From Armatimonadota bacterium (lineage in GTDB: Bacteria; Armatimonadota; UBA5829; DTJY01), in NCBI GenBank assembly GCA_029907255.1, contig JARYMF010000004.1:124001-188000 (forward strand): a stretch of DNA of 64,000 nt, read 5' to 3'. Shown here piece after piece: positions 26,260 to 27,675 of this stretch. Both the position numbers and the translations under genes were made by a program. Numbering within the stretch: the stretch's first letter is position 1; each line of letters starts with the position of its first letter. The notes beneath the pieces are model-generated. The model saw nothing but the letters and a program-made list of their open reading frames with translations. It searched no databases and was not told the origin of the DNA.

Positions 26260-27675
26260 CTACTGGGCGGCTGCATCAGCCTTGTGCAAAATCTTTTCTC
26301 GGTAGGCTTTGAAGTCAAAATTCGGGCTGTTCTTTGCATCATGACACTGCGTACATGATGACTGAAGCACTGCCCCAAAACCTTTTGCCGGCCTGCGAGT
26401 GTGGATAACGCCTGCGCCATGGCAAGCCTCACATTGAACACCCTGAAGCTGTGGAGTGGCATATTCACTCGTGAAACCGCCCTTCGACTTGTAGCCAGTG
26501 GTGTGGCAGCTTACACACTCGGGGTCTGTAGTGCGATTATCCTTCCTCAAACTTTGAAACGCTTTAGCATGTGCCGTTTTCAACCAGGAATCATATTCCG
26601 AGCGATGGCACTCACGGCATTTCAGCGCTCCCACAAACGGCCTCGGCTGTGACTGACCAACCTCTCCTGTTGAGGCCGATGCAGGAGATGAATATTGCGC
26701 CCGGAGACTAGCTATATAGGCTTCCCACTGCCTGTCGTGTTCTTCGATGACCTTAACCATCCTTGGGTCATCGGCCAGGTCAGAGGTTAAAGGAACATAC
26801 TCGCCCGCTGCATTTGCAATTTTCTTTTCCTGGTTAATATCAAGAACAAGCTTGCCAATGTGAGTTCCGGTGCTCTTGGCTTGCATTAAAACTGTAGAGC
26901 CGATGTTTTCAACCGAGGCGGCAGGCGATGAAGCTGTTTGGTGGCCAACCAGAATAACATCAATTCCAGGAATCTCAGTTGCAATGCGCTTGGCAAGGTC
27001 ATAACCGGTGTGGCTTAAAAGAACTACGAGGTCAACCTTCTTGCGCAGTTCGTCAACCTGTTTGCGCACAGCCTCCAAAGCATCGGTTATTTTCAGCTTT
27101 TCATTGCCAGGCAAAGCTCGGAATATGAGATTGTCGCCAACTACCGCCGTGATGCCTACTTTTAGACCTTCTTGAGTCTTTTTGACAATATAAGCCCTAT
27201 CAGCAAGCGGCTTGTTGCTACCTGCATCGAACGCGTTTACTGCTAATAAAGGAACATTCTTCCCATAAAGTTGCTTATTACCACATTCGGCAACGTACCT
27301 AGCCTCTGTCTCACCCATTGCAACGGCGTCGTAGCCCATATATGCCAGCGCCTCAGCATATGCGGCAGTCTTAATTTCAGCTTGCTTGCCTACTCCGACT
27401 ATTGCATCACCAGTATCCACTAAGATGAAAGAGCTGCCGGACTTCCGAAAATTTTCTAACCACGTTGCTCGTTTTGGAACCCCACCGAGGCTCTCTTTGT
27501 TGTGTCACCCACATGGGGCTTTAATATTCCCCTGGTCGTCGCCCGTGAATAGAATTGTGAGCTGATGTGGGCTAAATTTCTTTTCCGCAAAGGTAACAGA
27601 AGAAAATAACGCCAATCCAATAAACAAAACAGCAAGAAGCAACAAGATTCTCGGTTTTGCGATTTCTCGTTTCAT
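26260..27675 (-). CDS. Tetraheme cytochrome/5'-nucleotidase-like protein, probable selenoprotein (Sec at in-frame TGA 27507-27505)
   Basis: One frame runs from ATG 27675 to the stop at 26260 with a single in-frame TGA at codon 57. Read through, it gives a 471-residue exported protein. It has a signal peptide (residues 1-30), FTGDDQGNIKAPCG then U, HNKESLGG, and VDTGDAIVG. Degenerate 5'-nucleotidase/metallophosphatase motifs follow (AMGETEARY, LLSHTGYD, DVILVGHQT). The C-terminal cytochrome domain has CRECH (353), CVSCH (387), CEACH (415) and CTQCH (441). From memory, relatives carry a CGC motif where this has CG-TGA. An RNA hairpin suited to a bacterial SECIS lies exactly 11 nt after the TGA. 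The alternative is a nonsense mutation. The frame is otherwise intact, which favours selenocysteine. Confidence 0.72.
27477..27493 (-). promoter_or_regulatory. Candidate bacterial SECIS element
   Basis: On the minus strand, 11 bases after the in-frame TGA, GAGCCTC-GGT-GGGGTTC forms a seven-pair stem (two G-U) with a three-base GGU loop, 17 nt in all. The minimal functional E. coli fdhF SECIS is also a 17-nt upper stem-loop 11 nt after UGA, with GGU in its loop. SelB binds this part. Confidence 0.68.

Follow-up and report, generated by a model that had tools for sequence, protein, structure and literature searches.

A candidate SECIS hairpin at an in-frame UGA in an UshA-like (seleno)protein gene of an Armatimonadota bacterium

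Results

The window analysed here is a 64,000-nt stretch of contig JARYMF010000004.1 from an Armatimonadota genome. Its minus strand carries a gene for an UshA-like (seleno)protein at 26260..27675, an open frame in which a TGA is read as selenocysteine (Sec) and which matches NF041198, PF13435 and PF00149. The gene starts with an ATG at 27675 downstream of a ribosome-binding-like site (AAGGTGGG, 27692-27685, minus strand), and the start of the protein is signal-peptide-like. The in-frame UGA (27505..27507, minus strand) specifies residue 57, which is the second residue of a CxC/CxU motif that reads PCGU. A calcineurin-like metallophosphatase domain (PF00149, 26938..27558, residues 47-253 of P0001) is followed on the same strand by a cytochrome c554 domain (PF13435, 26416..26622, residues 359-427 of P0001), and the C-terminal part contains four CXXCH motifs by our count. 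Homology continues past the UGA and runs through all four. Both Cys columns of the PCGU motif, the second being Sec in the window protein, are invariant in 36 aligned homologues, with Cys or UGA in the second column in 36 of 36, and several of the heme Cys columns are invariant too.

The UshA-like family has been catalogued as CxU selenoproteins (PMC13188914, PMC2398784). The window protein shares with this NF041198/COG0737 family the CxU motif at the PCG(C/U) position, the metallophosphatase domain and the multiheme C-terminus, and positions 400-519 of the NF041198 model cover the heme region. Its score of 276.7 bits is barely above the curated cut-off of 275. Other UGA-bearing UshA-like copies score below this cut-off despite having the same UGA and hairpin, namely the genome's own paralogue (L047, 237 bits) and L064 with its relatives from the clade comprising the rest of the phylum (194 bits).

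An AlphaFold2 model of the protein has a mean pLDDT of 84, and its metallophosphatase part matches the fold of 5'-nucleotidases. In the alignment with 3ivd, the catalytic Asn-His pair of this fold (GNHE), along with some of the metal ligands, appears to be missing. Because GNHE reads GETE and the His of the first motif reads Gln, nucleotidase activity of the window protein appears doubtful. When the named genomes were scanned with the window protein, two distant metallophosphatases were the only matches.

The UGA is followed by an 11-nt spacer (CACAACAAAGA, 27494..27504, minus strand) and then by a hairpin at nt 15-31, where nt 1 is the U of UGA. The hairpin sequence, read from 27493 to 27477, is GAGCCUCGGUGGGGUUC (GAGCCUC-GGU-GGGGUUC). 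It consists of 7 bp, including G-U pairs at nt 17-29 and nt 20-26, and a GGU apical loop (nt 22-24, 27484..27486) that is also the first Gly codon of an LGG motif. RNAfold predicted exactly this 7-bp, 3-nt-loop hairpin, at –7.0 kcal/mol alone and –8.0 kcal/mol with the UGA and flanks (43 nt). The sequence-only reading had described just such a 17-nt minus-strand hairpin and had placed it within the coding sequence; sequence and folding agree with the former, and the frame 27675-26260 bears out the latter by running on past the UGA. Rfam gave no credible match for the hairpin stretch.

Counting both strands, the window holds 2013 TGA triplets, and only this one is followed at the same spacing by a 7-bp stem with a GGU loop; 0.01 would be expected in first-order Markov sequence. 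When codons were redrawn synonymously with the protein fixed, 7 bp formed at the exact place in 0.5% of redraws, and 7 bp together with the GGU loop in 0.1%. By contrast, some hairpin of equal stability that fits the bacterial SECIS model arose in 5% of recodings, which makes stability a weak argument when taken alone. Nor does folding energy by itself set the 43-nt stretch apart (z –0.4), and the free-energy z-scores of longer stretches are uninformative. The case is carried by geometry and homologues, not by thermodynamic stability.

These recodings bear on an alternative in which the UGA does encode Sec and the SECIS at work is some other or larger fold, with the hairpin a by-product of the LGGV codons. 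The stem does overlap those conserved codons, and the 5% figure is what this alternative would allow. The 0.1% obtained for the exact geometry speaks against it.

The minimal element of Escherichia coli fdhF occupies nt 15-31, begins 11 nt from the UGA and holds G23 and U24 in its loop; these two loop bases matter, and E. coli SelB also needs a bulged U at nt 17 (PMC8659212). The window hairpin likewise lies in the coding sequence, starts 11 nt after the UGA, is 17 nt long and has G23 and U24 in its apical loop. Unlike the E. coli element, it has seven uninterrupted pairs and a 3-nt loop, and in place of the bulged U17 there is a paired G. Nucleotide 17 varies among UGA homologues. The likeness to fdhF proposed from the sequence therefore holds for spacing, length, loop and location (PMC8659212) and breaks down at U17.

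We also compared the hairpin with the bSECIS consensus model (PMC13188914, Fig. 2A), which sets limits of 3-9 nt for the loop, 4-16 bp for the stem and 16-37 nt from UGA to loop, with a G in the first two loop positions and a minimum free energy of at most –7.5 kcal/mol. A 3-nt GGU loop, a stem of 7 bp, a UGA-to-loop distance of 18 nt and the placement of the G all lie within this geometry. Against the energy limit, the hairpin falls just short when folded alone (–7.0 kcal/mol) and passes with its flanks (–8.0 kcal/mol). Pairing and loop are kept in UGA homologues, with the qualifications that a tree-based test of this was not significant and that the stem of one copy is partly broken, as described below.

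Within the closest clade, the congeneric genome G224 keeps the UGA (97% protein identity), and all UGA stems are fully paired. The stem is GAGCCUC/GGGGUUC in the window and in G224, GGACCUC/GGGGUCC in G223 and AGACCUC/GGGGUCU, with a GGC loop, in the own paralogue L047. Across these three stems, two pairs are altered on both sides and one pair on one side. The covariance check over homologues that had been suggested with the sequence-only reading thus finds compensatory stem changes in this clade, which argue against the hairpin as a by-product.

Across the wider phylum set, the element usually takes the form of a UGA followed by 11 nt, 7 pairs and a GGUCUN loop. GGU is present at nt 22-24 in 21 of 22 UGA homologues, as its proposed conservation would require, versus 10 of 51 Cys homologues (Fisher p = 7e-10, with relatedness ignored). 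Part of this conservation is at the protein level, because GGU encodes a conserved Gly. In the set lacking the extra codon described below, 89% of the cells of the 7-pair stem are formed in 17 UGA copies, compared with 52% at the same positions in 49 Cys copies. Shuffling of the 3' letters reached the pairing of the UGA copies in 0 of 2000 trials and that of the Cys copies in 1649 of 2000, again with relatedness ignored. The median best hairpin is –10.6 kcal/mol in UGA versus –2.7 kcal/mol in Cys homologues. Loss of the stem with retention of TGA, which would count against a SECIS, is seen in part in one of the 22 UGA homologues: L074 has lost 3 of 7 pairs and kept both GGU and UGA, which suggests a looser constraint on the lower stem than on the loop. 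A motif filter was used to collect the homologues, and at least three UGA copies were missed by it; by eye, L076 and L080 have GGU at nt 22-24 and L031 has GGA.

These Sec/Cys contrasts are confounded by phylogeny. The tree requires 8-11 Sec/Cys changes, and a tree-aware test on eight independent pairs, which lacks power and needs at least six informative pairs, was not significant either for the hairpin (3.7 pairs in the same direction versus 0.3 in the opposite one, median p = 0.25) or for GGU (median p = 0.6).

The position of the loop relative to the protein differs between lineages. In most UGA copies, five residues separate Sec from the GG pair, and the GGU loop coincides with the second of the two Gly codons. 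With six residues, as in the window clade and in two copies of G007, it is the first of them that supplies GGU at nt 22-24. Despite the one extra codon in these two lineages, the loop has thus stayed 18 nt from the UGA. A fixed loop distance with a shifted protein register is not what conservation of Gly in the protein alone would predict, and its occurrence in a distant clade is a further point against a by-product of the LGGV codons. G007 has at least six UGA copies of the family (L145, L158-L161, L081), with both the five- and the six-residue spacing.

Some Cys copies retain the hairpin. L048 (G224:C1:43800-45800), the sister-species orthologue of L047 with 45 differences in 1200 nt, has TGC in place of TGA and retains an 8-bp hairpin with GGU. 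The pair represents a very recent Sec/Cys difference, with TGA and a GGC loop in L047 (G000:C8:125900-127900) and TGC and GGU in L048. G232 has two Cys copies of the family (L084 and G232:C3:85386-85952), one of which, the TGT-bearing second copy L084, retains a SECIS-like hairpin. Full SelA and SelB were not found in G232; SelA-like fragments remain, one with a stop. A similar case is L021 (G213), where the codon is TGT and the hairpin is kept. These three hairpin-keeping Cys copies look like recent Sec-to-Cys switches.

The genome encodes tRNA-Sec(UCA), with the SelA gene adjoining it, as well as SelB (404 bits, cut-off 242) and SelD. The SelD gene (L121, G000:C4:193321-194247), about 5 kb past the window end, has an in-frame TGA in THGGGUACK, and SelD is itself likely a selenoprotein; a different hairpin was predicted when it was folded for comparison. 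Among the family's five genomes, the three with UGA copies all have SelA and SelB; of the remaining two, which lack SelA or full SelB, G225 carries a Cys copy and G222 carries none. In the fragmented assembly of G228 (460 contigs), a UGA copy and SelA are present, and a full SelB match was not found.

Discussion

Computation shows the hairpin, a homologous frame that runs on past the UGA, the Sec machinery in the genome, and a loop and pairing conserved in homologues. With these in hand, we consider it very probable that the hairpin is a bacterial SECIS element and that the UGA is read as Sec into a full selenoprotein, and they support the SECIS reading first made from the sequence. When a ribosome reaches the UGA, SelB with selenocysteyl-tRNA-Sec would bind the hairpin through its GGU loop just ahead of the ribosome. 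SelB would then deliver selenocysteine, and translation would run on past the UGA. The predicted product, an UshA-like selenoprotein of 471 residues that bears a CGU motif and four c-type hemes, would be exported to the periplasm.

The alternative that the functional SECIS is another or larger fold draws further on the finding that a longer stretch, including sequence upstream of the UGA, folds differently. With the UGA in the A site, however, sequence upstream of it would sit inside the ribosome. Together with the recoding, covariation and register results above, this leaves the by-product explanation improbable in our judgement. A genuine termination codon or a sequencing error, with a broken gene or a short N-terminal peptide as the outcome, fits a TGA one base from TGC in a draft assembly of 33 contigs. 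We find it scarcely credible: the congeneric genome (97% identity), G223, the own paralogue and over 15 additional homologues all carry this TGA, each time where the invariant Cys stands, and the genome has the full Sec machinery.

With a SECIS element and a full selenoprotein as our preferred reading, the Cys-x-Sec pair may be redox-active and the heme domain may relay electrons. We tentatively raise the joint possibility, to which we give somewhat less than even weight, that the protein is an unrecognised periplasmic oxidoreductase and not a nucleotidase, with the Cys-x-Sec pair near the remaining site and electrons carried by the four hemes, and that its hairpin is a lineage variant of the SECIS that does without the U17 bulge.

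The family is already catalogued, and the window gene is an ordinary, well-supported example of it. What the analysis confirms is a selenoprotein gene that standard gene calling would break in two at the UGA. UGA-bearing relatives below the NF041198 cut-off, both the own paralogue and those of the wider clade, could be listed as broken genes in annotations. The loop distance that stays fixed across a codon insertion, together with the hairpins left over in Cys copies, amounts to a clean experiment of nature on the requirements of a bacterial SECIS.
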